From Prevotella sp. (lineage in GTDB: Bacteria; Bacteroidota; Bacteroidia; Bacteroidales; Bacteroidaceae), in contig JAFULM010000028.1 of NCBI GenBank assembly GCA_017483185.1, positions 1-48,084 of the forward strand: DNA of 48,084 nucleotides. Reading direction: 5' to 3'. Shown here piece by piece: positions 30,461 to 46,960 of the stretch. Below the pieces are notes generated by a model, which was given only the letters and a program-made list of their open reading frames with translations, was not told where the DNA came from and did not search any database. A program made the position numbers and the translations under genes. Within the stretch, counting starts at the first letter, position 1; every line of letters starts with the position of its first letter.

Positions 30461-31495
30461 TTAAACAAGTTGCGGCAGGAATGAGGATATGATCAGCACG
30501 ATGATGCCCACGATGAGCACGGCGATGGTCTTCTGCGAACAGCCCTTCCACTCTTTGAGAATGATGCCCCAAACGTTGGAGAACACCACGTTGAGCGCCA
30601 TGAGGATGCAGAACGCGAGTGTCATCAGTGTCGGTGACTCGGTGAGGAAGCCCTTGCCGAGCGACAGACCGAAGAACTGGCTGTACCACAGTGCACCGGC
30701 CAAGGCGCAGAACACCACGTTGTTCAGCCAGACATTGCCCTTCTTGTAGTCACCCCACGTGCCGTTCTTGCTGTTCTGATAGAAGCAGTAGATAGCGTTG
30801 GTGACAAATCCGCCCAGCGTGACGAGGAGCGTTGCGGGCAGCGTCTTGTACATATCGGGCGTCAAGTCGCCGAAGTTGATTTCCTTTCCGAACTCCAGAC
30901 CGACATTGAAGCAGCCGCTCATGAAGCCGGCGAGCAGGGCGATGGCCAGACCTTTCGGGAAGTTGAAGTCCTTGACGGCGGCTTTCTTCTCTTCCTCAGA
31001 CAGCGAAGCGGCCTTCATAGAGCCGGCCACGCCGATGATGGCGATGCCTGCGAGTGTCACGACAACGCCGAGAATGACGGCAAATGTCAGCGACTCAAGG
31101 GCGTTGAGCTCGGGGAAGAAGATATTGAGCAGCACGGGGCCCATGATGGTTCCCAATCCGGCGCATGTTCCGAGGGCAATCGACTGGCCCAAGGCAACGC
31201 CGAGATAGCGCATCGACAGACCGAAAGTGAGGCCGCCGACACCCCAGAGGACACCGAAGAGGATGGTCATCCAGAGGTTGAACGAGTTTGTCATTGAGAA
31301 CAGTTCACACAGGCTGTGACCTTCCGGTACGGCCAGCATAGCGCCGAGCAGCGGCAGAATGAGCCATGCGAAGACACCCTGAACGATCCAGTAGCTTTCC
31401 CACGACCAATCCTTGATCTTGTTGATTGGCACGTAGCAGCTTGACTGACAGAAGGCGCCGATGGCGATGATGATAAGTCCGATGATTATTTCCAT
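30461..31495 (-). CDS. rhaT: L-rhamnose:H+ symporter RhaT
   Basis: Inner-membrane L-rhamnose transporter of the drug/metabolite superfamily, 344 aa with about ten hydrophobic segments. Family landmarks are the N-terminal IIIAIGAFCQSSCYVPINKIKDWSWESYWIVQG, LWGVGGLTFGLSMRYLGVALGQSIALGTCAGLGTIMGP and the C-terminal NVVFSNVWGIILKEWKGCSQKT. The order rhaB-rhaI-rhaT on the minus strand makes this the last gene of the rhamnose unit. It lies 126 bp after rhaI, with an inverted repeat in the gap that could lower its expression. Confidence 0.95.
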   Translation of the reverse strand: MEIIIGLIIIAIGAFCQSSCYVPINKIKDWSWESYWIVQGVFAWLILPLLGAMLAVPEGHSLCELFSMTNSFNLWMTILFGVLWGVGGLTFGLSMRYLGVALGQSIALGTCAGLGTIMGPVLLNIFFPELNALESLTFAVILGVVVTLAGIAIIGVAGSMKAASLSEEEKKAAVKDFNFPKGLAIALLAGFMSGCFNVGLEFGKEINFGDLTPDMYKTLPATLLVTLGGFVTNAIYCFYQNSKNGTWGDYKKGNVWLNNVVFCALAGALWYSQFFGLSLGKGFLTESPTLMTLAFCILMALNVVFSNVWGIILKEWKGCSQKTIAVLIVGIIVLIISSFLPQLV

Positions 31496-31621: not shown

Positions 31622-32878
31622 TTATGCTCTCTTTGAAGTTACGTCAGCCTCATATTTCTCAACGGCGCCGATGAACTCTTCGCCTACGGGCACGTTGTTG
31701 CGTACGCAGAACTCGTCGTAAACAGCGTTCCAAGGCAGGTTCTTGCACTCCTCGAGCAGTGCCAGACGCTGGAACTTCTTGTCGTCCAGCTCATACTGAC
31801 GCAGTGTTGCCAGCGGTTCGAGCAGGGCGCGGAGCATGCACTTCTGAGCAGCGCGGCTACCGATGACGTAGGCACCGATGCGGTTGAGCGTTCCGTCGAA
31901 GTAGTCGAGACCGTAGTGAACACGGTCGAGAGCGCCGGCGCGAACGATTTCGCTGAACAGATCCTGTGTCGGGTCGTCCATGATGGTAACGTGGTCTGAG
32001 TCCCAGCGAACCGGGCGAGAAACGTGGAGCATCAGCTCGGGCACGAAGAGCAGCATGGCCGAAACCTTGTCGGCAACGCTCTCTGTCGGGTGGAAGTGAC
32101 CGGTGTCGAGAGTGATCATCATGTTGTTCTTGGCGGCGTAAGAGGTGTAGAAGTCGTTTGAACCAACGGTGTAGCTCTCCAGACCGATACCGAACACCTT
32201 AGACTCGACGCAGTCCTTCATGTTGTCATACTTCTGAGCGAAGATCTGATCGAGAGAATCCTTCAGCAGTTCGCGGTACATCAGACGGTTGACGGTGAGG
32301 TCCTTGCTTCCGTCATGCACCCATGTGTTCATGATACAGGGGTCGCCCTGAGCCTTACCGATGGCCTCAGAGATGGCGCGGCAGCGCTTTGAGTGCTCGA
32401 TCCAGAAGTCGCGGATGCCCTTGTCGGGGTTAGCGAGGCTGAGATCGCCGCTCTTCGGGTGAGAGAACGAGGTAGAGTTGAAGTCGAGCAGAGTGTTGTT
32501 TGCCTTACCCCAGTCGATCCAGCTCTGGAAGTGTGTGACGTCGCACTGGTCGCGGTCAACATATTTGCCGCCGAAGTCACCGTAGATCTCGTGGAGGTTC
32601 AGACGGTGAGTACCGGGGATGAGTGACTTTGCGTAGAGAATGTCAGCGCGCAACTCGTCGATGTTGCGGGCCTTGCCGGGATAGTTGCCGTTGACCTGAA
32701 TACCTCCGGTCAGTGAGCCGCCCTGGTTCTCGAAACCTGCCACGTCGTCAGCCTGCCAGCAGTGCATGCTGAGGTGGAAGTTCTGCATCTGTTCCAATAC
32801 CTTTTCTGTGTCAACTCCGATGGCAGCGTAGCGCTCTTTGGCTACTTCGTATGCCTTTTTTACCAATTCTTCTTTCAT
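31622..32878 (-). CDS. rhaA: L-rhamnose isomerase
   Basis: Converts L-rhamnose to L-rhamnulose; Mn2+/Zn2+-dependent, cytoplasmic, called rhaI in B. thetaiotaomicron. The ATG at 32878 gives 418 aa, the normal family length; upstream in-frame codons run through a non-coding repeat. Diagnostic segments are MHCWQADDVAGFENQGGSLTGGIQVNGNYPGKARN near the N terminus, LNLHEIYGDFGG, LDFNSTSFSHPKSGDLSLANPDKGIRDFWI, ITLDTGHFHPTESVADK with metal-binding residues, and HVSRPVRWDSDHV. It lies between rhaB and rhaT. Confidence 0.97.
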   Translation of the reverse strand: MKEELVKKAYEVAKERYAAIGVDTEKVLEQMQNFHLSMHCWQADDVAGFENQGGSLTGGIQVNGNYPGKARNIDELRADILYAKSLIPGTHRLNLHEIYGDFGGKYVDRDQCDVTHFQSWIDWGKANNTLLDFNSTSFSHPKSGDLSLANPDKGIRDFWIEHSKRCRAISEAIGKAQGDPCIMNTWVHDGSKDLTVNRLMYRELLKDSLDQIFAQKYDNMKDCVESKVFGIGLESYTVGSNDFYTSYAAKNNMMITLDTGHFHPTESVADKVSAMLLFVPELMLHVSRPVRWDSDHVTIMDDPTQDLFSEIVRAGALDRVHYGLDYFDGTLNRIGAYVIGSRAAQKCMLRALLEPLATLRQYELDDKKFQRLALLEECKNLPWNAVYDEFCVRNNVPVGEEFIGAVEKYEADVTSKRA

Positions 32879-33097
32879 TTTGTTTTTTAGGTTTTTATTG
32901 TTAGTTTGTTGATTAATTATCAGCCTCACCCCCAACCCCTCCCCAAAAGGGAGGGGAGAGTGGTATGCTTTCGTGGAAAGAATGGGAATCACTTTGAGCT
33001 GCGGTAGCAAATTACTCGCTACGCTCTCATCAACACGTTTTCACTCTTCATTCTTCCCTTTAAGTCCCCCTTGGGGATGCAAGGGGGCTTTCATTCT
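32879..33097. repeat. repeat-rich spacer between rhaB and rhaI
   Basis: This 219-bp spacer has a short inverted repeat CCCCTCCCCAAAAGGGAGGGG (about 32936-32957), related to the CCCCTCC/GGAGGGG repeats at 46685-46818 and 47991. It also has a GAAGAATGAAGAGTGAAAAC-type tract and, just after the rhaB stop, a stem AAGTCCCCCTT/AAGGGGGCTT (33062-33090). I see no gene here. The stem may partly terminate after rhaB. Confidence 0.5.
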
Positions 33098-34582
33098 TTA
33101 CTTCTTTTTCTCCACGATTTCGAGGAAGCGCTCGTAGGCCTTGTCCCATGTCTCGGTGTCTTTGGGTGTAAACCGTTTCAGTTCGAGACTGGCGGCGATG
33201 ATGCGGCGCATCTCCCAGATGTCGCTGACGTCGCCGGATGCTTTAGCCTGAAGCATGATGTTTCCGATGGCCGTTCCTTCCTGCGGTCCGGCGAGCACTT
33301 CGACACCGAGAGCGTCGGCCGTGAACTGGTTGAGGTAGTTGTTGAGCGAGCCGCCTCCGATGATGTGTAGCACGTCGAGCGGGAATGAGGCCATCTCCTT
33401 CAGATAGCCGAACACCTGACGGTAGCGCAGGGCAAGCGAGTCGAAGATGCAGCGGCATATCTCGGCATATCCTTCAGGCACGTGCTGGCCGGTCTCGCGG
33501 CAGTATGTCTGTATGGCGTCGACCATCGACGACGGGTTGGCGAACATCGTGTCGTCCGGATTGATGATGCTCCGGAAGGCGGGCTGCTTCATGGCTTCGG
33601 CCTGCAGTTCGGCGTGAGACTTCGGCGCGTCGGTCCACTCCTTGCGGCAACGCTCGTAGAGCCACATGCCGCAAATGTTCTTCAGGAAGCGTGTCGTGCC
33701 TTCGATGCCGCCCTCGTTGGTGAAGTTGCGTTCGTAGCTGAGGTCGTTGATGATGGCGTCCTTGGTCTCGATGCCCATCAGACTCCACGTGCCGCTGCTC
33801 AGGTAGGCGAACTTCTCGTCCTTGGCCGGAACGGCTGCGACGGCGCTGCCCGTGTCGTGGCCGGCAACGGCGATGACGGGCACGGCGCCCAGTCCGGTCA
33901 TCTTCTGGACCTCTTCCGTCAGCGTGCCGATTTCTACGGCCGGATTGACCATCTGGCCGAAGTTGTCGCGGCTCAGGCCGACGCTCTCCAAGAGACGTTC
34001 GTCAAGCTGCTTGGTCTTCGGATCGAGCATCTGGCTGGTCGAGGCGATTGTATATTCGCAGACCATCTTGCCCGTGAGCATGTAGCTCAGTGCGTCGGGC
34101 ACGAAGAGTATCTTCTCCGCGTTCTCCAGGGCTGTGTTGCCGGCGCGGCGCATGGCGTAGAGCTGGAAGAGCGAATTGAAGTTCATGAACTGGATACCGG
34201 TGGTGTCGTAGACGGTCTTTTTGTCGACGGCCTTGTCAAAATACTCCTCCATCATGCCGAACGTGTGGGGGTCGCGGTAGGCCAGCGGATTGCGCAGCAG
34301 CGCACCGTCCTTGCCGACGCAGACGAAGTCGACGCCCCATGTGTCGATACCGATCGAGCAGATGGGGAGCTGACGCTGAGCGGCGAGTTTGAGACCCTTG
34401 ATGATCTCATTATATAATGCGTAGATGTCCCAGTAGAAATGTCCTCCGGTCTCGATGAGATTGTTGTCGAAACGGGTCAGTTCTTCCAGAGAGAAGCGTC
34501 CGTCACCGAGTGTGCCGATGATTGTGCGGCCGCTTGTGGCGCCGAGATCCACGGCAAAAAAGTATTTCTTGTTATTTTCCAT
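33098..34582 (-). CDS. rhaB: rhamnulokinase
   Basis: ATP-dependent kinase making L-rhamnulose 1-phosphate, the substrate of RhaD. The 494-aa FGGY-family protein has the N-terminal phosphate motif FFAVDLGATSGRTIIGTL and the sugar-binding IGIDTWGVDFVCVGKDGALLRNPLAYRDPHTFGMME. It also has VIAVAGHDTGSAVAAVPA and the C-terminal ATP-binding IIGGGSLNNYLNQFTADALGVEVLAGPQEGTAIGNIMLQ. It is the first gene of the rhamnose unit, with a -7 box about 50 bp before the ATG. Confidence 0.97.
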   Translation of the reverse strand: MENNKKYFFAVDLGATSGRTIIGTLGDGRFSLEELTRFDNNLIETGGHFYWDIYALYNEIIKGLKLAAQRQLPICSIGIDTWGVDFVCVGKDGALLRNPLAYRDPHTFGMMEEYFDKAVDKKTVYDTTGIQFMNFNSLFQLYAMRRAGNTALENAEKILFVPDALSYMLTGKMVCEYTIASTSQMLDPKTKQLDERLLESVGLSRDNFGQMVNPAVEIGTLTEEVQKMTGLGAVPVIAVAGHDTGSAVAAVPAKDEKFAYLSSGTWSLMGIETKDAIINDLSYERNFTNEGGIEGTTRFLKNICGMWLYERCRKEWTDAPKSHAELQAEAMKQPAFRSIINPDDTMFANPSSMVDAIQTYCRETGQHVPEGYAEICRCIFDSLALRYRQVFGYLKEMASFPLDVLHIIGGGSLNNYLNQFTADALGVEVLAGPQEGTAIGNIMLQAKASGDVSDIWEMRRIIAASLELKRFTPKDTETWDKAYERFLEIVEKKK

Positions 34583-35661: not shown

Positions 35662-37005
35662 ATGACAACATTAACTCTTGGAATTGTCATCGTTTTCGTC
35701 ATCGGCTATTTCTGTATAGCCATCGAAAGCCTGACAAAAATCAACAAGGCGGCTATCGCCCTGCTGATGTTCGTGTTCTGTTGGACACTCTTCATGGTGG
35801 ACCCCGGAAGCTATATTGCCGGAGCCGTCGGTGAACATGCTGCGCTGGCCGTGAGTGAAGTGATGGAGAAGCATCTCGGAAGCACAGCCACCACGCTGTT
35901 CTTCCTCATGGGAGCCATGACGATTGTCGAAGTAGTCGACCAGAACGGTGGTTTCAACTTTGTGCGTGACCTGCTCAAGACCCGGAGCAAGAAGGCTCTG
36001 CTGTGGCGCATCGCCGTCCTGACGTTCGTCCTGTCGGCCATTCTGGACAATCTGACGACGAGCATCGTCATGATCATGATTCTTCGCAAGCTCGTGTCCA
36101 GCCACAAGGACCGTCTCATATACGCCTCGCTTGTGGTCATCGCGGCCAACTCCGGAGGTGCTTTTTCGCCCATCGGCGACGTTACGACAATCATGCTCTG
36201 GAACAAGGGACTGATAACGGCGCTTGGCGTGATAAGCGAAATCTTCATCCCGTCGGTGGTCTCGATGGTCATCCCGGCCTACATACTGTCGCTTTCGCTG
36301 AAGGGCGATTTCGCGGCAACGGGCAATAATGTTGTCGCCGGCCAGGGCGCCGGAAGCCTCACTGCCTTCCAGCGCAAGGCGGTCTTCGTCCTCGGTGTGG
36401 GCGGTCTGATATTCGTGCCCATCTTCAAGTCCATCACCCATCTGCCCCCGTTCGTCGGAATACTGCTCGTGTTGGGTGTGCTCTGGACCGTGACCGAGAT
36501 ATTCTACCGTTCGCAGGGTGAGGAAGACAAGGGCGGCACCCAGAAGCGCATCACCAACATGCTCACCCGCATCGACATGGGAACAATCCTCTTCTTCCTC
36601 GGTATCCTCATGGCCGTGGCCTGTCTTGAGACAATCGGCGTGCTGACCATGCTGGGTGAGGGTCTCAATGTGGCCTTCGACGGCAACCACTATATGGTCA
36701 CCGGCATCATCGGTGTCCTCTCGAGCATCGTCGACAATGTGCCCTTGGTGGCCGGATGTATGGGTATGTATCCCGTCGCTCCGACCGGCGACATGGCCGT
36801 CGACGGCATCTTCTGGCAGCTGTTGGCCTATTGCGCAGGTGTGGGTGGTTCGATGCTCATCATCGGTTCGGCCGCAGGCGTGGTTGTCATGGGATTGGAG
36901 AAGATCACCTTCGGATGGTATATGAAGCGCATCACGTGGATAGCTTTTGTCGGCTACCTCGCCGGCATCGGTGTCTACTGGCTGGAGAAGACATTCATCT
37001 TCTGA
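35662..37005 (+). CDS. nhaD: NhaD-type Na+/H+ antiporter
   Basis: Inner-membrane sodium:proton antiporter of the ion-transporter superfamily, 447 aa with about 11-12 hydrophobic helices. Typical NhaD segments are FCIAIESLTKINKAAIALLMFVFCW near the N terminus, MGAMTIVEVVDQNGGFNFVRDLL, VLSAILDNLTTSIVMIMILRKL and ANSGGAFSPIGDVTTIMLWNKGLI, with the second-half repeat IIGVLSSIVDNVPLVAGCMGM and GSMLIIGSAAGVVVMGLEKITFGWYMKRI. The paired DNxTTS and DNVPL motifs are the expected transport-site repeats. It is monocistronic, with its own promoter and terminator. Confidence 0.95.
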   Translation: MTTLTLGIVIVFVIGYFCIAIESLTKINKAAIALLMFVFCWTLFMVDPGSYIAGAVGEHAALAVSEVMEKHLGSTATTLFFLMGAMTIVEVVDQNGGFNFVRDLLKTRSKKALLWRIAVLTFVLSAILDNLTTSIVMIMILRKLVSSHKDRLIYASLVVIAANSGGAFSPIGDVTTIMLWNKGLITALGVISEIFIPSVVSMVIPAYILSLSLKGDFAATGNNVVAGQGAGSLTAFQRKAVFVLGVGGLIFVPIFKSITHLPPFVGILLVLGVLWTVTEIFYRSQGEEDKGGTQKRITNMLTRIDMGTILFFLGILMAVACLETIGVLTMLGEGLNVAFDGNHYMVTGIIGVLSSIVDNVPLVAGCMGMYPVAPTGDMAVDGIFWQLLAYCAGVGGSMLIIGSAAGVVVMGLEKITFGWYMKRITWIAFVGYLAGIGVYWLEKTFIF

Positions 37006-37203: not shown

Positions 37204-37376
37204 GATGCTGCAGAACTTCCACAATGTAGGGTCGCGACCCGTCGCGACCGCCACGTGGTCAATTGTTTCAACACGTTCGGTTGACTTATATATACGTCAG
37301 GTTTTGTGGAGGGTTATAGTGACAAGGAGGCGGTCGCGACGGGTCGCGACCCTACTTTGTGGAGTTATGCAACATC
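37204..37376. repeat. MITE-like inverted-repeat element, copy 1
   Basis: Perfect 27-bp arms (37226-37252 and 37329-37355), each containing two TCGCGAC-type palindromes (GTAGGGTCGCGACCCGTCGC at the outer end), enclose 76 bp. Weaker pairing continues outwards to 37204 and 37376 (GATGCTGCAGAACTTCC with GGAGTTATGCAACATC). A second copy with the same 27-bp arms is at 45686-45846. There is no transposase and no gene in the 400-bp gap between nhaD and the AraC gene. Confidence 0.8.
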
Positions 37377-37440: not shown

Positions 37441-38310
37441 TCACTTCACCCTCATCTCGCTCGGCTTGCGGCCCGTCTTTATCTTGAATTTTGCGGAAAA
37501 ATAGTCGGGCGAATCGAAGTTGAGGCGATATGCAATCTCCTTGATGCTGAGGTTGGTCGTGCTCAGCAGCTCCTTGGCACGCTGGAGCTTGAGGTCCTGC
37601 TGATAGGTGGCGGGCGAGAGGCCGGTGTATTCCTTGAAGAGCTTGCGGAAGTTGGAGTAGCTCACGCCCAGTTCCTCTGCAATCTGCTGGATGGTCAGGC
37701 TGCTCTCCAATGCCTCATATATGCGCAGTCGGGCGCGGCGCACCATGTCCACATGGGCATGGTCTCTGTTGAGCTCGATGTTGCGCTCGAGCGAATACAT
37801 CGTGCCAATCAGATAGTTGACGATGCCGGCCAACAGTTGCTGTGCGTAAGCCTGTTCTTCGTCAGCAGTCTTCAAAGCCGTTTCGTAGAGTTGGACGATG
37901 ATGTTGGAGAAGCCGATGTGATAGATGGGTTTTTCTTTGGACAGAAAACCGTAGCGCACGCGGTCGTCGATGTTCTTGCCCTTGAAACCGATCCAATAGC
38001 TCTTCCAACCGGTATCCGGATTGGGGTGATAGGAGTGCCATTCGCCCGGAAAAAGCAAGAACATGTCGCCCTCGCGGATCTCCGCTTCCTCTATCGTGGC
38101 GCTATGGAACACTCCGCTGCCTTCGGGGATATAGAGCAGCTGAAACTCGTTGAGCTCGCGGCCTTCGTCTATATTGAAGTAATAGCCGTCGGCATGACCG
38201 CGGGTGGGATAGGGCTCGCCGGGAACAATCTCTTCATATCCGACCGTGCTCACGGTGAGTCCCCACAACCGATCTCGCTCGTTGGCCAAAACGTACTTGC
38301 TATTTTGCAT
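37441..38310 (-). CDS. AraC-family transcriptional regulator
   Basis: DNA-binding regulator of 289 aa. An N-terminal cupin-like ligand domain (about 20-130; ELNEFQLLYIPEGSGVFHSATIEEAEIREGDMFLLFPGEWHSYHPNPDTGW) is followed by two helix-turn-helix motifs in the last 100 residues: LTIQQIAEELGVSYSNFRKLFKEYTGLSPATYQQDLKLQRAKELL and LSIKEIAYRLNFDSPDYFSAKFKIKTGRKPSEMRVK. There is no receiver domain. It is 8 bp after the second histidine kinase and clearly co-transcribed. The cupin plus AraC layout and the nearby rha genes allow a RhaR-like role, as with the AraC regulator of B. thetaiotaomicron rhamnose genes. A target linked to the kinases is equally possible. Confidence 0.9.
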   Translation of the reverse strand: MQNSKYVLANERDRLWGLTVSTVGYEEIVPGEPYPTRGHADGYYFNIDEGRELNEFQLLYIPEGSGVFHSATIEEAEIREGDMFLLFPGEWHSYHPNPDTGWKSYWIGFKGKNIDDRVRYGFLSKEKPIYHIGFSNIIVQLYETALKTADEEQAYAQQLLAGIVNYLIGTMYSLERNIELNRDHAHVDMVRRARLRIYEALESSLTIQQIAEELGVSYSNFRKLFKEYTGLSPATYQQDLKLQRAKELLSTTNLSIKEIAYRLNFDSPDYFSAKFKIKTGRKPSEMRVK

Positions 38311-38318
38311 ATTCTTCT

Positions 38319-41147
38319 TTATATTTTATCTTCATTTGTTTGGTTTGTCTCGTCCGCTTCCTCCGCGCTCTCGATGTCACAGGGCACCCATATCCAGAAG
38401 TGGGAACCTTTGCCCGGTTCGGAATCGACGCCGATGCGGCCTCCGTAACTGTCGGCAATGGCCTTGCAAATGCTCAATCCCAATCCCGTGCCTTGGACGA
38501 AGTCATTGAGTTTGACGAAACGGCGGAAGACGTCATCACATTTTTCCTTTGGTATGCCGCTGCCGGTGTCCTCGCAATAGATGCGGATGCCGCCGTTCTC
38601 GACGCAGTAGCCTACGCGGATGTGACCCTGATGGGTGTGCTTTATGGCGTTGGTCATGAAGTTGACGATGACCTGCTGGATGCGGTCGATGTCCAATTGT
38701 GTGCGCAGAGAGCGGTAGGGATTTTCCTTTATCAATTGCAGTCCGTTCTCGGAAACCTGCTGGACGAACGTTGCGCAGATGTCGTCGAATGATGCCGCGA
38801 AGTCGATGGCGTGCGGCTCGATGGTCAGCCCGTCGGTGTCCATCGACGAGATGATGAGTACGTCGTTGATGATATGCAGCAGCATGTTGCAGTTGTTGCG
38901 TATGATGCGGAGGAACTCCTTGCGGTCCTCCGGCGACTCGATGGTCTGTATCAGGTCGCAGAAGCCCACGATGGAGTTCAACGGCGTGCGTATCTCGTGG
39001 CTCATGTTGGCGAGGAACAGGCTCTTCTGACGCTCGGACTCGTTTGCCCGCTGCGTCTCCTGCCGCAGTTTCTCCTGCGTTTCGATGAGCTTGGTGATGT
39101 CCCTGATCAGTCCGACGGAGCCTGTGACGTTGCCGTCGCTGTCGTAACTTGGCATGCTGTTCACGGAATACCAGTGGTTTGTGTCGTCTTTATCAAACAT
39201 GTTGCGTAGCGCCAGCATGACCGTTTTGGACTCCGGGTTGTCTTGGGACACGTCGAATATGTCGCGTATCCTGGCCTTGTCCTCGTCGTTTGTGGTACAT
39301 TCGGCAATCCAGTCCATGCTGACGGTGACTCCCTGGTTGTGCAATCCCTTGTGGAAGGAGACCGTCTTGTCCGCAAACGACGAACGCCAGACTCTGGTCT
39401 TGCTCTCTTCCAACAGATACATCAGCTCCTCCTCGGCTCGTGTGGCTGCTTGTCTGATGGCGTGGAGAGTGTCGCCGTTCTTTTTGCGGAGCAGGTAGAG
39501 GTCGCGCTCTTCGTTGATGGGACGGATGGTGATGAGTATGTATATCAGTTCGCCATCGTCGTTGTGGATGGGCCGCAGGCATATCTCTATATATTCGGAG
39601 ACGTTGCGTTCGGGGACGTCTATCTTGCTGCAGAAGTGCACATCCGTTATCTCAGACGAACCGATGGCGTCTTTTATTGATGGAAAGTCTAACCAACACT
39701 TCTTGTAGTAGAACTCATCTTTGGGTGTGTTGAAGCGTAACAGCTTTCTCATATTTCTGTTGGCGTCGATGAGGAAGCCGTTGCTGTCGTGCAGGGAGAG
39801 TCCCGAGATGGTCATTTCGAAGATGCTGCTGTATGTCATGGCGGTCTTGTCGGCCTTCTGTTCCTTTGACAAGTCGTTGTCGATGTCCGTCAACGTGCTG
39901 ATGATATTTGTCGTTTTGCCGTTGTGCCGGGTCTCTCGTATCGAACTGCTATGTATAACCCGCCAGCAGGGACGGTCTTCTGTCCCGACATTAAAGCGGT
40001 AGGTGTATTCCATCGGTTTGTCGTCGTGGTAGGCGAAGAACTCATTGTAGAACTCCGCGACGCTTCTGTTGTCGTCAGGATGGACCAGTCTGTTGTATTG
40101 TTCGATTGTCATGCCTGCCTCGGGGACGTGATTACCGTAGATATTGCTGATGCGTCCGGTCTTCAGGTTGGTGCATGTCACGTTTTGGCGGCTCACTTTC
40201 AAGGCCGCCTGCATGATGTTGTTCTTCTCTATTGTGAGCTGTGTGCTTTTCTTAATTCGTTTGTTTATGATGTGATTGACTGTCACAATGACAATCGCCA
40301 GAATGATTGCGGCGATGATGATGATAAGCACCACGGGTGATGCGTCGTTGTCGTCGATTTCCGGGTTAAACCATTTTGTCTTCAACTTGCTGACCGTTCC
40401 TTGTTGTTCGAGCCGTGCAAACTGTTCGTCCAGCATCTCTATCAGGTGGCTGTCGTGGCTCACAAATCTCATTTCGCCGGCCGGAATGTCGATTTCTCCC
40501 ACCTCTATGTCGGTGATATTGAGTTCTTTCAGCATCCTCTCGAGCGGCTTTTCGCCCCACACAAAGTATTCGTGTTCGTTGTCGTTGAGTTTTTGCAGCG
40601 TTGCACGCGGCGAGCGGAAGATGATCTGCCGTACGTTTATGTCTTTGCGGGCGAGTATCATTTTCGTCGCATAGTCGTACTTCTTGAGCACAAGAGTGTC
40701 GCCCGGTGTCATCTTGTTGAGGTCTGTCAGTGGCTTTGCTCCGCGCTTATAGGCAATCTTCACCTTGTATGGTGCGGTCGTTTTGCGGCTGTAGAACCTG
40801 TTCTTGTCCGGCTTGTTGCGGCTGTTGACGGGCTCAATCATGAGGTCGGCCTCGCCTGTGTTGAACATGTTTTCGGCGTTGTCTAATTTCTGGAAGATGA
40901 AGACGTGGGGTATGTCGAGTTTGTCGAGTATGGTCTTGAGCAGGCTGATGTTATATCCTTCCGGCTCTCCGCGGTCGTTGGCATATTCGTATGGCGCGTA
41001 GTTCCAGTCGGAAATGATGCGCAAGGGTTTCTCTTCTGTGTAGCGTGTGCTGCTCCTGTCTGCCATTGCGGTTGTTATGCAGAACGCTGTCAGGGCTACG
41101 ATGAGAGAGACTCGGGCCGTGATATATCTTGAAAAGCGTGTTTCCAT
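38319..41147 (-). CDS. membrane histidine kinase with periplasmic solute-binding sensor domain (intact)
   Basis: Sensor kinase of 942 aa. In order: signal sequence (about 8-29, VSLIVALTAFCITTAMADR); family 3 solute-binding-like domain (about 40-265; PLRIISDWNYAPYEYANDRGEPEGYNISLLKTILDKLDIPHVF); one membrane helix (about 273-297, VVLIIIIAAIILAIVIVTVNHII). Three PAS-like domains follow (about 310-690, the last with NHWYSVNSMPSYDSDGNVTGSVGLIRDIT). HisKA has phosphoacceptor H717 in MSHEIRTPLNSIVGF, and the ATPase domain has N-box VIVNFMTNAIKHTH, G1 CEDTGSGIPKE and G2 GTGLGLSICKAIADSYGG. All catalytic motifs are present. No receiver domain follows. It lies 12 bp after its paralogue and 8 bp before the AraC gene. 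Confidence 0.92.
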   Translation of the reverse strand: METRFSRYITARVSLIVALTAFCITTAMADRSSTRYTEEKPLRIISDWNYAPYEYANDRGEPEGYNISLLKTILDKLDIPHVFIFQKLDNAENMFNTGEADLMIEPVNSRNKPDKNRFYSRKTTAPYKVKIAYKRGAKPLTDLNKMTPGDTLVLKKYDYATKMILARKDINVRQIIFRSPRATLQKLNDNEHEYFVWGEKPLERMLKELNITDIEVGEIDIPAGEMRFVSHDSHLIEMLDEQFARLEQQGTVSKLKTKWFNPEIDDNDASPVVLIIIIAAIILAIVIVTVNHIINKRIKKSTQLTIEKNNIMQAALKVSRQNVTCTNLKTGRISNIYGNHVPEAGMTIEQYNRLVHPDDNRSVAEFYNEFFAYHDDKPMEYTYRFNVGTEDRPCWRVIHSSSIRETRHNGKTTNIISTLTDIDNDLSKEQKADKTAMTYSSIFEMTISGLSLHDSNGFLIDANRNMRKLLRFNTPKDEFYYKKCWLDFPSIKDAIGSSEITDVHFCSKIDVPERNVSEYIEICLRPIHNDDGELIYILITIRPINEERDLYLLRKKNGDTLHAIRQAATRAEEELMYLLEESKTRVWRSSFADKTVSFHKGLHNQGVTVSMDWIAECTTNDEDKARIRDIFDVSQDNPESKTVMLALRNMFDKDDTNHWYSVNSMPSYDSDGNVTGSVGLIRDITKLIETQEKLRQETQRANESERQKSLFLANMSHEIRTPLNSIVGFCDLIQTIESPEDRKEFLRIIRNNCNMLLHIINDVLIISSMDTDGLTIEPHAIDFAASFDDICATFVQQVSENGLQLIKENPYRSLRTQLDIDRIQQVIVNFMTNAIKHTHQGHIRVGYCVENGGIRIYCEDTGSGIPKEKCDDVFRRFVKLNDFVQGTGLGLSICKAIADSYGGRIGVDSEPGKGSHFWIWVPCDIESAEEADETNQTNEDKI

Positions 41148-41159
41148 TGTGACTGTTAT

Positions 41160-43949
41160 CTAAGTAAGGATATTCTTTTTCTTTATTGTGATAGCCTTGC
41201 ATGGAATTGTTATCCACACCGTGGTGCCGTGGCCGAGTTCCGACTCCAAGTCCAGGTGTCCTCCCATTTTCTCCACGAGTCTCTTGCAGATGAGCAATTT
41301 CAGTCGTATGCAGCAGTGGTCGACGTCCTCGAATGTTTCCGCTTGCTGGAACATGGTGTCGAGTACGTCTTTGCTGATGCCTACGCCGCTGTCCTCTACG
41401 CTGACGGTCAGTTCGCCGTGGTGGTATTCATATTTGGCGCTGATGCTTCCGCTGTGTGTGAAGTGTGCCGCGTTGGCCGTGACAATCTCAATCACCTGAC
41501 CCAGATGATTGGCGTCGATGTCTACGACGAGGTGCTCATAATGGTTTTCGATGATCGTGTTGACGCCTTCTTTCAGTTCGTGTGTCCATCCGCTCAGGCA
41601 GTGGGAGTCGAATATTTCGGCAAAGTCGATGTTCTCATGGGTCATCTCGATCATGTTGGAATCGATGCGTGAGATCTGCAGAATGTCGTTGATGATGTTC
41701 AGCAGGAGTGCCGAGTTCTTCTTTATCTCGTCCATGAAGATTGGTTCGTCCTCCGGCGCGTGGTCGGTTTCGAAGAGCTCTGCAAATCCCATCACGGCGT
41801 TCAGCGGTGTTCTTATCTCGTAACTCATGTTCTTGACGAATGAGTTTTTGACGGTTTCGGCGTTGCGTGCTTTCAGCATTTCGAGTTTGAGTTGGCGCTC
41901 GGTCTCCTCTATTTCGCTGATGTTGCGGCACAATCCGTAGTAGTGGTCTATCTTGCCGTCGGTGTCAAAGATGGGTATTCCTGTCAGGTGGAGGTGTTGC
42001 TTGCGCTGTTTTTCGTCTGTGAAGATGGTGCTGAGCTTTATGTCAAATTTCCCCGCGCGATATCTGTCCATGCTGTTCATCAGTCTCATCGCATCCTTGC
42101 TGCAACTCTCGTCCAACATGCGGAGACATCTGATTTGCGACAGCCGGATGGTCGGCATGTGCGGGTCGTGTGTTATCTCCAGCATCTTTGTTGCCGGATA
42201 ATATCGTGTCAGCCATGAGTGGCTCACCTCGAGGTCGTAGTTGATGTTGCGCACATACTCTTTCTGTCTTTCGATGCCTTCTTTGATGAGTTGTTCGTTG
42301 CGTCTTTCTCTGTTGCTGTTTTCGGCCATTTCGGTCATGTCGCGGCCTGTTACGAAAAAGCGTATGAGCTTGTCTTTGTAGTATATGGGTTGTATGACGT
42401 ATTCATAGTATTTTATGTTCTCATGTGTTATCGTGCCCAGGCCGACTCCCGGCTTTACCAAGGCTGTGGCATGGACGGTTTCCGGATGCGTCATGTCCAT
42501 TCCAAGGCTGTTGACGAGCAGGTCCTTGATGTTTATCTGCTTCATCGTTGTCCTGTCGGTCTTTAGTGTCCGCATCGCATTTTGGTTCAAGTCGATCAGG
42601 TCTCCCTTGCTGTCGAACAGTCCCATGTCGATGTTTACGGCGTAGAATACGGTCTGAAATTTCAGTTGTGTGTTTCTCTGTTCGATATACTTCTGTCTTT
42701 CTTCCGTCACGTTGTGCTGTGTGACGAGTAGCATCGACACCTTGCCGTGTTTGCGCCGATGGACGGATATGATCATGTCGAAGTAGTGTTCGTTGTCCGG
42801 AGTGGACGGTTTGTGACACCGTGCCTGTATGGTCTTGGTCTGTGTGGGGTTGTCCTGCACGTATCGGAGGGCGTTGCAGATGGTGATGAAGTCGTCGTGG
42901 TTGAAGAATACGGAGAAGTTGAGTTTGGTGTATTCGTCCAATACTTCCCCTTCCGAGGTGTATGTGATAAACTTTTCGCGCTCCACGTCGTATGCCCACA
43001 TCATTATTTTGCAGGAGAGGACGTATAGCGAGAGCCGTTTGGTCAGATTGTCGTTGATGCGGTTGACGCTGTTTTCCCTAAAGCGGTAGACGGCATTGTA
43101 GATGATGAGCATCAGTATGATGAAGCTGAGTCCTCCCGCGATGTACCAGGTGAATTCCGGAATACCGCTTTGCTTTACCTGTGGGTAGAACCATTTGCGT
43201 CGAATGGGTGTCAGTTCGTCGTTGACCGCCATGATTTCGTAGACACTGTCGATCATCTCCAGCAGACGTTTGTCCCGTGACATGAACCTGTATTCGCCGT
43301 TGGGGATATAGACCGGTGTTATCTCGAAATTGTCAAGATCGTATTTCCGTATGGTGTATTCCAGCGACAGTGTGTTCCAGAGTATCTCTCCGCTGTCTTT
43401 TGCAGCTACTCTGAGTATGGCGTCATTGATGTCGTCGCTCGGGATTGCGTGCTTCTCAAGTCCGCTTGTGACCATGTATCGGTGGCTGACGCTGTTCCGC
43501 TGCATGACAAATTTGTGGCCGTTGAGGTCTTTCGCTGTCTTTATCTGCGGGTGGCTGTGTTTCGGGTGGGCGATGCCGTGGGTGAAGAGTCCGACGACAG
43601 ATGTTCCGTAGTCGGCAAACTGCGAATGATAGTCCGTCAGCATGCCCAGCATGAGGTTCGAGCGTCCTTCTTTCAAGTCGTTGTAGGCGTCGGCGGTGGG
43701 CTTGAGCCGTATGATGTATGGTATGTCGAGTCTTTTCAGGATGATCTTTATCAGGTCGACGTTAAATCCGTTTGGCTCTCCGTCCTTGTTGAGAAAAGTA
43801 TATGGCGGGAGGTCCCAGATGTCTTCGTATATGAGCGGCTGGTTTATCGTGTATTTGTTGTCATCGCTGTCGTGCGTGTCTTGTGCCTGTGTGCCTACAA
43901 GCGGGAGTATGGTCATGATGACCGCGATGAAATATGACTTTATGTGCAT
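41160..43949 (-). CDS. histidine-kinase-like sensor with Tyr in place of the phosphoacceptor His
   Basis: Paralogue of the next gene, 929 aa from the ATG at 43949. Upstream in-frame codons lie beyond the promoter box. Signal peptide about 1-23 (SYFIAVIMTILPLVGTQAQ); solute-binding-like domain (about 35-270; IYEDIWDLPPYTFLNKDGEPNGFNVDLIKIILKRLDIPYII); membrane helix (about 285-310); PAS-like domains; a HisKA-like segment reading MSYEIRTPLNAVMGFAEL, where Y710 replaces His (codon TAC, 41820-41822). The ATPase domain keeps N (VTANAAHFTH) and G1 (EDSGVGIS), but the G2 motif GxGLGL is replaced by CIRLKL. The frame is intact over its full length, so it is a maintained protein rather than a pseudogene, probably unable to autophosphorylate. 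It is the first gene of the kinase-kinase-AraC operon. Confidence 0.9.
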   Translation of the reverse strand: MHIKSYFIAVIMTILPLVGTQAQDTHDSDDNKYTINQPLIYEDIWDLPPYTFLNKDGEPNGFNVDLIKIILKRLDIPYIIRLKPTADAYNDLKEGRSNLMLGMLTDYHSQFADYGTSVVGLFTHGIAHPKHSHPQIKTAKDLNGHKFVMQRNSVSHRYMVTSGLEKHAIPSDDINDAILRVAAKDSGEILWNTLSLEYTIRKYDLDNFEITPVYIPNGEYRFMSRDKRLLEMIDSVYEIMAVNDELTPIRRKWFYPQVKQSGIPEFTWYIAGGLSFIILMLIIYNAVYRFRENSVNRINDNLTKRLSLYVLSCKIMMWAYDVEREKFITYTSEGEVLDEYTKLNFSVFFNHDDFITICNALRYVQDNPTQTKTIQARCHKPSTPDNEHYFDMIISVHRRKHGKVSMLLVTQHNVTEERQKYIEQRNTQLKFQTVFYAVNIDMGLFDSKGDLIDLNQNAMRTLKTDRTTMKQINIKDLLVNSLGMDMTHPETVHATALVKPGVGLGTITHENIKYYEYVIQPIYYKDKLIRFFVTGRDMTEMAENSNRERRNEQLIKEGIERQKEYVRNINYDLEVSHSWLTRYYPATKMLEITHDPHMPTIRLSQIRCLRMLDESCSKDAMRLMNSMDRYRAGKFDIKLSTIFTDEKQRKQHLHLTGIPIFDTDGKIDHYYGLCRNISEIEETERQLKLEMLKARNAETVKNSFVKNMSYEIRTPLNAVMGFAELFETDHAPEDEPIFMDEIKKNSALLLNIINDILQISRIDSNMIEMTHENIDFAEIFDSHCLSGWTHELKEGVNTIIENHYEHLVVDIDANHLGQVIEIVTANAAHFTHSGSISAKYEYHHGELTVSVEDSGVGISKDVLDTMFQQAETFEDVDHCCIRLKLLICKRLVEKMGGHLDLESELGHGTTVWITIPCKAITIKKKNILT

Positions 43950-45685: not shown

Positions 45686-45846
45686 GTAGGGTCGCGACCC
45701 GTCGCGACCGCCTCCTTGGTACACGACCAACCCAGTTAACCAACCGCATATATAAACTGATCGGACGGTCGAAATATATACATACGTCGGCCTGACAAGC
45801 CAAAACAATGTGGCACGGAGGCGGTCGCGACGGGTCGCGACCCTAC
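45686..45846. repeat. MITE-like inverted-repeat element, copy 2
   Basis: The arms at 45686-45712 and 45820-45846 are the same 27 bp as in copy 1 (37226-37355) and pair for 3 bp more inward (CTCC/GGAG region). The interior is 107 bp, AT-rich with TATATA and ATACGTC, only weakly like copy 1. There is no coding sequence. It lies in the frr upstream region, 119 bp before the frr promoter. Confidence 0.8.
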
Positions 45847-46608: not shown

Positions 46609-46960
46609 AGGAGTTAAAGGAGTTATCGCGGGCAGAGTCCGCTCGACGGTGTTGCATAACTCACTTGAAATCCTTTAAATGGTGTAATCTCAGTCCCCTC
46701 CTTTGCAAGGAGGGGCAAGGGGCGGTTGGTCACCCGCCGTCATTCAAAGGGGTGATTTACAATGAGTTATTGGCCAATCACCCCTAACCCCTCCTTGGAA
46801 AGGAGGGGACTGCGATTACCCCACTTAAAGACTTCCTCAACGAGTTCTGTCACACCCTCTCAGGAATTAAGGCCAATACCGTGGCAAGCGCAGTCTTCTG
46901 ACATACGTTTTTACTCCTGAGCGTCCGCAGGGAGCGATAACTCCTTTAACTCTTTTAACT
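46609..46960. repeat. nested inverted repeats between frr and rsgA
   Basis: An outer pair (46609-46644 with 46919-46960; AGGAGTTAAAGGAGTTATCG and its complement) encloses an inner pair of 45-bp arms (46685-46729 with 46774-46818). The inner arms are built on CCCCTCCTTNNNAAGGAGGGG palindromes. A loose half of the inner arm (AATCTCAGTCCCCTCCTT) recurs at 47982-48006, and a short relative lies at 32936-32957. No gene is visible here. rsgA starts 8 bp after the outer repeat. Confidence 0.75.

Follow-up and report, generated by a model that had tools for sequence, protein, structure and literature searches.

A Prevotella sensor kinase without an acceptor histidine, kept directly ahead of an intact kinase

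The window, a 48,084-nucleotide stretch of Prevotella DNA, is contig 15 (positions 1–48084) of a 2.47-Mb draft genome that is 75% complete. It encodes two consecutive sensor kinases, here called U (upstream) and D (downstream). Prevotella keeps U, a sensor kinase that has lost its acceptor histidine and mostly carries tyrosine instead, over long evolutionary times just ahead of the intact kinase D. The catalytic losses of U, the integrity of D, the adjacency of their genes, purifying selection on U, complementary conservation of the two proteins and co-evolution of each U with its own D are observed, in an analysis that is sequence-derived throughout. Together they suggest a two-part receptor, one half for sensing and the other for chemistry. 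On balance we consider it probable that U is a pseudo-histidine kinase preserved by selection, that it forms the sensing half of a two-gene receptor, and that it acts via D, most likely as a heterodimer.

Catalytic boxes of U and its pairing with D

The features of the two genes are as follows, where SBP stands for a solute-binding-protein-type domain, DHp for the dimerization and histidine phosphotransfer domain and CA for the catalytic ATP-binding domain.

41160–43949, minus strand: U, putative SBP-PAS-DHp-CA pseudo-histidine kinase, 929 residues (open frame, Pfam, AlphaFold2)
43188–43814, minus strand: SBP_bac_3 periplasmic sensor domain of U, residues 46–254 (Pfam)
41922–43046, minus strand: three PAS-like modules of U, approximately residues 302–676 (read from the succession of strands and helices predicted by AlphaFold2, with pLDDT mostly 60–89)
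41652–41900, minus strand: DHp (HisKA) domain of U, approximately residues 684–766 (Pfam; U-specific conserved residues)
41820–41822, minus strand: TAC codon of Tyr710, the phosphoacceptor position of U (the plus strand reads 'gta')
41457–41489, minus strand: degenerate N-box of U, EIVTANAAHFT (alignment to D)
41376–41393, minus strand: intact G1 box of U, DSGVGI (sequence)
41295–41312, minus strand: lost G2 box of U, CIRLKL, residues 880–885 (D has GTGLGL there)
38319–41147, minus strand: D, the intact partner histidine kinase, 942 residues (frame, Pfam, alignment)
38997–38999, minus strand: His717 codon of D, within MSHEIRTPL (sequence)

D begins 12 nt past the stop codon of U, and the two proteins share a common architecture and 24% identity. 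Judged by eye, U starts with a signal-peptide-like stretch and has one transmembrane (TM) segment. Pfam identifies SBP_bac_3, HisKA (55.2 bits) and HATPase_c (62.9 bits), so that both kinase folds are present. Two PAS models barely exceed their cut-offs. Of the three PAS-like modules Pfam detects the last alone, and weakly. The AlphaFold2 model of U, built from 18 sequences, has a mean predicted local distance difference test score (pLDDT) of 66.3 and a predicted TM score (pTM) of 0.32. The SBP region is poorly modelled, and use was made of PAS and CA only; the model is uninformative for the sensor and for the dimer. The CA part is mostly at pLDDT 85–90, with a weak lid region at residues 861–880 (pLDDT 54–67).

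An earlier note on this DNA had read an intact frame, a tyrosine at the phosphoacceptor position, an intact G1 and a lost G2, and on all four it was right: the frame is open throughout, the H-box of U is MSYEIRTPL, G1 retains its motif and G2 does not. It was wrong in calling the N-box intact, since EIVTANAAHFT has neither the first Asn nor the Lys of VNFMTNAIKHT, its counterpart in D. U has thus lost the acceptor histidine together with the first N-box Asn, the Lys and G2, and would by this set of losses no longer act as an autokinase.

At E ≤ 1e-60, U was matched in 84 of 200 genomes of the genus, and in 24 of the 86 with at least 90% completeness and at most 5% contamination. Across the family, matches were found in 11 of 301 genomes, including its own, and in two of 30 genera; across the order, in three of 344, namely its own genome, one congener and one partial kinase match. 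Relatives recovered by protein search are labelled Prevotella or Prevotellaceae, one distant match excepted. The resulting set of 101 loci consists of 80 stretches from genus genomes, 10 of 11 protein-search loci, 10 of 20 new family-search loci and the window; a few of them duplicate one genome or one stretch. Loci carry numbers prefixed with L. A kinase-core profile built on the window's two kinases returned 276 cores above 110 bits, of which 265 are complete and 258 unique. The 11 partial cores were excluded from residue counts; eight of them belong to D genes lying behind a U, and seven of these eight show H-box, G1 and G2, the other being that of L047.

For the trees, the 12 scored catalytic columns were taken out of the kinase-core alignment; the residue counts that followed used the columns as they stood. 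These trees place U and D as sister clades. The U clade comprises 138 unique cores (FastTree support 0.995) and the D side 120; IQ-TREE, run on 134 of the 138 U, 10 of the 120 D and two of four outgroup cores, gave SH-aLRT values of 99 for U and 92 for D. At the acceptor position of the 138 U there are 89 Tyr, 17 His, 16 Phe, 11 Gln, two Ser and one each of Lys, Gly and Glu, although the share of Tyr may be overestimated because loci were picked chiefly by similarity to the Tyr protein. The first N-box Asn is retained in 7, the Lys in 5 and the second Asn in 97; the G1 Asp in 136, the second G2 Gly in 121 and the third in 88. His, both N-box Asn and Lys never occur together (0/138). In D, by comparison, His, second N-box Asn, Lys, G1, F-box and G2 are present in 120/120 and the first N-box Asn in 117, so that 117 D cores are intact at every tallied residue. 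As a separate observation, in the D of L073, L074, L083, L103, L115 and L117 the N-box and G1 are separated by a variable insert, made up partly of simple Pro/Ser/Thr/His-rich repeats. In the second family genus (g14; L139, L140, L141 and L142), the U relatives have Gln at the acceptor site; they match the query in parts only, and three of them look as though stretches of linker or PAS had gone or the frame had split.

Two readings would leave U some chemistry of its own. In one, U is a tyrosine autokinase with Tyr710 as phosphoacceptor. Tyr is indeed the commonest residue at this site and has a hydroxyl, but the Phe and Gln of other family members do not fit such a role, and the query combines a degenerate N-box with a lost G2. 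Moreover, DivL, a Tyr-bearing kinase-like protein of Caulobacter, is described as showing no autophosphorylation upon addition of DivK or DivK~P (PMC4211667). We therefore give this reading hardly any credence. In the other, which we regard as improbable, the two proteins are a trans-donor/trans-acceptor pair, with U half-active: a U whose ATP-binding parts are intact would phosphorylate D on its His, or a U that bears His would take phosphate from D. The second N-box Asn and both scored G2 Gly occur together in 82/138 U, and FasB/FasC of Streptococcus pyogenes are proposed to be such a pair, the kinase domain of FasC being dispensable and its His246 needed (PMC12675982). Set against this are the rarity of the first N-box Asn and the Lys among U, the loss of G2 as well in the query, and a D that is intact on its own.

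The trees suggest an order of losses. The branch closest to the U root (L128, L132 and L138) has Tyr or Phe with an ATP site that is intact or nearly so, which argues that the acceptor His was probably lost first and the N-box later. In the clade nearest the window (the window, L042, L043, L054, L055 and L133), all six unique cores have Tyr and an altered G2 with Arg at the second Gly, in cores from different draft genomes. The idea that Tyr and G2 loss are conserved together thus holds among the nearest relatives. As one linked signature of the whole clade it was rejected, 45 of the 89 Tyr cores keeping both scored G2 Gly and 32 more keeping one. The earlier note took His in close relatives as a sign of decay or error; the nearest clade has none, a result in that note's favour, and the His-bearing U lie farther off.

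Pairing with D is constant. D lies directly next to U, on one strand, in 125/125 testable unique U, which bears out the conservation with the downstream kinase that the earlier note had asked about; the other 13 of the 138 lie too close to a contig end for the test. A full D core follows on the same strand in 116, with a median of 7 nt from U stop to D start (116 gaps measured). Nine further U precede a D with a core that the profile divided or overlooked, among them L047, whose D lacks a stretch of DHp, and L117, the ninth, where the frame after U contains ASMTHELRTPL and was judged on its H-box alone. Conversely, 115 of the 120 D have a full U just upstream, three are too near a contig end, and two (L108 and L121) follow a partial or broken U. 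The pair is often repeated: there are 32 complete distinct U-D-U-D sets, and L079 has three pairs. In genomes G090 and G031, D and the next long U share one stop-free frame (L030:1489–5739, L038:2–4135 and L070:7943–12712), a possible natural D-U fusion.

Selection, division of labour and co-evolution

U is under purifying selection. Between L042 and L043, the ratio of non-synonymous to synonymous substitution rates (dN/dS, Nei-Gojobori) of U stays between 0.045 and 0.14 by domain (DHp 0.045, CA 0.059, SBP 0.127 and PAS part 0.139); comparisons past this close pair are near saturation. With its clade-wide conservation, this bears out the claim that the gene is maintained. It also bears on the rival reading that a tandem duplicate is simply decaying or that the sequence or its assembly is in error. 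Several catalytic boxes are altered, the draft is 75% complete, and a few relatives have a single TGA, TAA or TAG in the matched stretch; most matched frames are, however, open. A sequencing error is disfavoured because Tyr and the altered G2 recur in six cores from different drafts, and decay is at odds with the low dN/dS and with U-specific residues conserved over 138 cores. Decay and error were therefore rejected, and we rate them as very improbable.

The two proteins conserve different parts. Across 81 long pairs, mean pairwise identity of the SBP domain is 0.495 in U versus 0.367 in D (bootstrap difference 0.112–0.144), whereas that of CA is 0.431 in U versus 0.631 in D (bootstrap difference 0.180–0.218); the TM-PAS part is near equal, at 0.314 and 0.326. 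Conservation is thus complementary, of the sensor in U and of the catalytic domain in D. The sensing role that the earlier note had assigned to U fits this division. The DHp domain of U also has residues of its own, Glu at −14, −12 and +25, Arg at +51 and Met at +56 from the acceptor, at which D differs; the three Glu and the Arg are conserved in more than 90% of U.

Co-evolution was measured in 25 U-D-U-D arrays, each combining a short pair with a long one; their four genes sit consecutively on a single contig and so have a common species history. The correlation of distances within own pairs exceeds that across pairs by 0.27 (0.10–0.47) in DHp and by 0.29 (0.11–0.49) in PAS and linker, the latter with 253 of 300 array pairs usable. 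In CA of the 25 arrays no such excess was seen (0.06, −0.02 to 0.17). An own-pair excess in DHp and PAS is what dimerization along a PAS-DHp axis predicts, and counts as indirect evidence for a U:D heterodimer.

The proposed mechanism starts with the periplasmic SBP-type domain of U, which would read a small-molecule signal. The signal would pass through one TM segment to the PAS modules and on to the DHp helices. Because U is proposed to be unable to autophosphorylate, output would run through the intact kinase D, which would carry the sole reliable phosphoacceptor and ATPase. Coupling would most likely occur through U:D heterodimerization along PAS and DHp, with U setting the kinase/phosphatase balance of D. 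We also entertain, more tentatively, a broader version: that a split receptor kinase evolved once in Prevotella as an asymmetric and obligate heterodimer. One subunit, a dead kinase with a conserved solute-binding sensor, would be dedicated to sensing, and the other, a conserved kinase whose sensor evolves fast, to catalysis; later duplications would have copied the pair whole, giving insulated U-D-U-D arrays. If true, it would be a bacterial parallel to pseudokinase/active-kinase receptor pairs.

A number of results weigh against the two-gene receptor with a dead sensing half. FastTree support for the D side is just 0.494. His is present in the 17 U noted above, all of which lack the first N-box Asn and which by parsimony amount to about ten later returns inside the Tyr/Phe clade. 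Many U may still bind ATP, judging by the retained G1 Asp and by the cores that keep the second Asn and both G2 Gly; the near-universal G1 Asp suggests either that nucleotide may still bind or that the fold requires this residue. Recombination that moves pairs as units could also raise the own-pair correlation, though CA should then follow. Covariation between U and D (116 pairs, effective number 52) gave no direct contact evidence. Finally, alpha1, the helix that docks the response regulator, is similar in U and D, with a pair identity of 0.60 compared with 0.32 in CA; a U that senses a response regulator as DivL does could show the same similarity.

That last reading, which we regard as rather unlikely, has U as a homodimer that binds or dephosphorylates the response regulator of D and so tunes the pathway without heterodimers. 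U retains much of the docking surface on alpha1 and, after the lost His, the E-x-x-T stretch (Glu 96%, Thr 93%), and DivL, which operates in this manner with Tyr at the same place, still binds phosphorylated DivK as the Y550F variant according to the account consulted (PMC4211667). However, the start of alpha2 differs between U and D (Glu versus Arg/Lys at +25 and Val/Ile/Leu versus Glu at +27), and own-pair co-evolution reaches the PAS part, which a shared response regulator does not require. A response regulator adjoins the pair in one subclade only (8/101 loci), with any receiver frame in 9/101. As for a phosphatase role, DivL itself is described as without phosphatase activity (PMC4211667). 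On DHp charge, U is the more acidic (mean −6.35 versus −3.2 for D); the window's U and D form no clear acid/base pair.

Comparison with known pseudokinase systems

RetS is a hybrid kinase and not an adjacent paralogue, and FasB and FasC belong to a kinase family other than that of U and D. Few natural pseudo-histidine kinases are described in the sources consulted, DivL being the main one and FasC a proposed one. In the open-access literature, covered by titles and abstract openings with subscription papers outside its scope, no paper on the Prevotella U-D pair was found.

DivL of Caulobacter and other alphaproteobacteria has a conserved Tyr at the acceptor position (Ala in one homologue) and controls CckA; its Y550H variant is reported to gain no autonomous autokinase activity (PMC4211667). 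A Tyr pseudokinase can thus control another kinase, because DivL does so. From this account DivL resembles U in its PAS-DHp-CA architecture, in the Tyr of its H-box, in being maintained and in governing another kinase, but differs in its cell-cycle role and in reading DivK~P. U differs in turn by its periplasmic SBP sensor, a gene placed just before that of its partner, a site that varies (Y, F, H, Q) and a degenerate N-box. DivL (4q20) was the twelfth match to U among solved chains in a sequence search. Orthology of U to alphaproteobacterial DivL is unlikely, because U has an SBP sensor and its close relatives are confined to two genera of the family sample.

FasB and FasC are encoded by adjacent kinase-like genes; two-hybrid data are reported to support heterodimers and not homodimers, and the two appear to be obligate heterodimers with one partner a proposed pseudokinase (PMC12675982). 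The U-D pair resembles them in these two adjacent kinase-like genes with one proposed pseudokinase, but FasC keeps a His that is needed while its kinase domain is dispensable, and the response regulator FasA lies in the same cluster. Unlike both FasBC and DivL, the Prevotella pair belongs to a large, repeatedly duplicated, sensor-bearing family in which the acceptor is lost on the upstream partner.

Other kinase-like proteins are described as working through a partner. ChrS_CA-fs of Corynebacterium glutamicum is a pseudokinase that works through the paralogous kinase HrrS, as proposed for U and D; unlike U, it is a laboratory-evolved frameshift, and heterodimers are reported for the native kinases and not for the truncated form (PMC9491836). 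RetS/GacS, named in PMC12675982, and RcsD/RcsC likewise resemble the proposed pair, in that a kinase-like protein modulates its partner kinase. The kinase domain of RcsD is inactive; unlike U, RcsD has a histidine phosphotransfer (HPt) domain, and RcsC/RcsD is thought not to be a 1:1 heterodimer (PMC13317618).

The U-D pair probably serves signalling in a genus prominent in the rumen and gut. A natural family of this size, in which the intact partner is always adjacent and independent pairs recur, would offer a test bed for the control of live kinases by dead ones. Its arrays would offer another for insulation between co-expressed paralogous dimers, and the U family a third for drift of the acceptor among Tyr, Phe, Gln and His after ATP-site damage.

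Neighbouring genes and repeats

The genes that continue past D are as follows.

37441–38310, minus strand: AraC-family regulator that comes next after D on this strand, 8 nt past its stop (domain search)
35662–37005, plus strand: NhaD-type Na+/H+ antiporter, a convergent neighbour in many relatives (NF038006 above cut-off over part of the profile)
33098–34582, minus strand: rhamnulokinase rhaB (NCBIfam TIGR02627 above cut-off)
31622–33010, minus strand: L-rhamnose isomerase rhaA, the match starting approximately 46 codons inside the frame (NCBIfam NF002203 above cut-off)
30461–31495, minus strand: L-rhamnose/proton symporter rhaT (NCBIfam NF010022 just above cut-off)

Sugar use is a possible regulon of the pair, from the position of the AraC and rhamnose genes. 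In L128, a member of the deepest U branch, the gene order is U-D-AraC-rhaB-rhaA-rhaT. By our own count the AraC gene occurs in 39 and a rha gene in 20 of the 101 loci, many of which stop short of the region. An AraC homologue is present in 50 of 84 genomes with U versus 41 of 116 without (Fisher p 0.0009, kinship uncorrected). Strict co-occurrence was rejected, the AraC gene being absent from 34 of the 84, and this counts against tying the receptor to rhamnose. We treat the rhamnose link as a lead because U-D arrays without an AraC gene are common and AraC occurs in those 41 genomes without U. A comparative analysis of rhamnose regulons gives an AraC-type RhaR as the regulator in Bacteroides, and its main text uses neither 'histidine kinase' nor 'two-component' (PMC3870299).

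None of the 19 receiver matches in the window's own genome lies on the window's contig, which thus offers no response regulator in the operon. In one subclade (L054, L056, L057, L058, L059, L062, L064 and L071) U is preceded by genes for a response regulator and a second kinase. The second kinase is RprXY-like and of the GTGLGLAIVKN type in its G2 stretch. Contig 17 of the window's own genome has a receiver gene and a kinase with the same G2 stretch. Receiver frames were scored with a home-made receiver profile, and seven of the nine loci that have one are of this response regulator plus second kinase type.

Two kinds of repeat were seen in the window. A 22-base GC-rich repeat, GGGTCGCGACCCGTCGCGACCG, forms two inverted pairs, at 37229–37250 (plus strand) with 37331–37352 (minus strand) and at 45689–45710 (plus strand) with 45822–45843 (minus strand). 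With at most one mismatch, the genome has 178 copies (94 forward, 84 reverse) and none of the reversed control. The copies often form inverted pairs about 80–140 bp apart, as in elements like repetitive extragenic palindromes (REP/REPIN). Between frr and rsgA, at 46690–46810, repeated stretches around cccctccttgcaaggagggg were spotted by eye.

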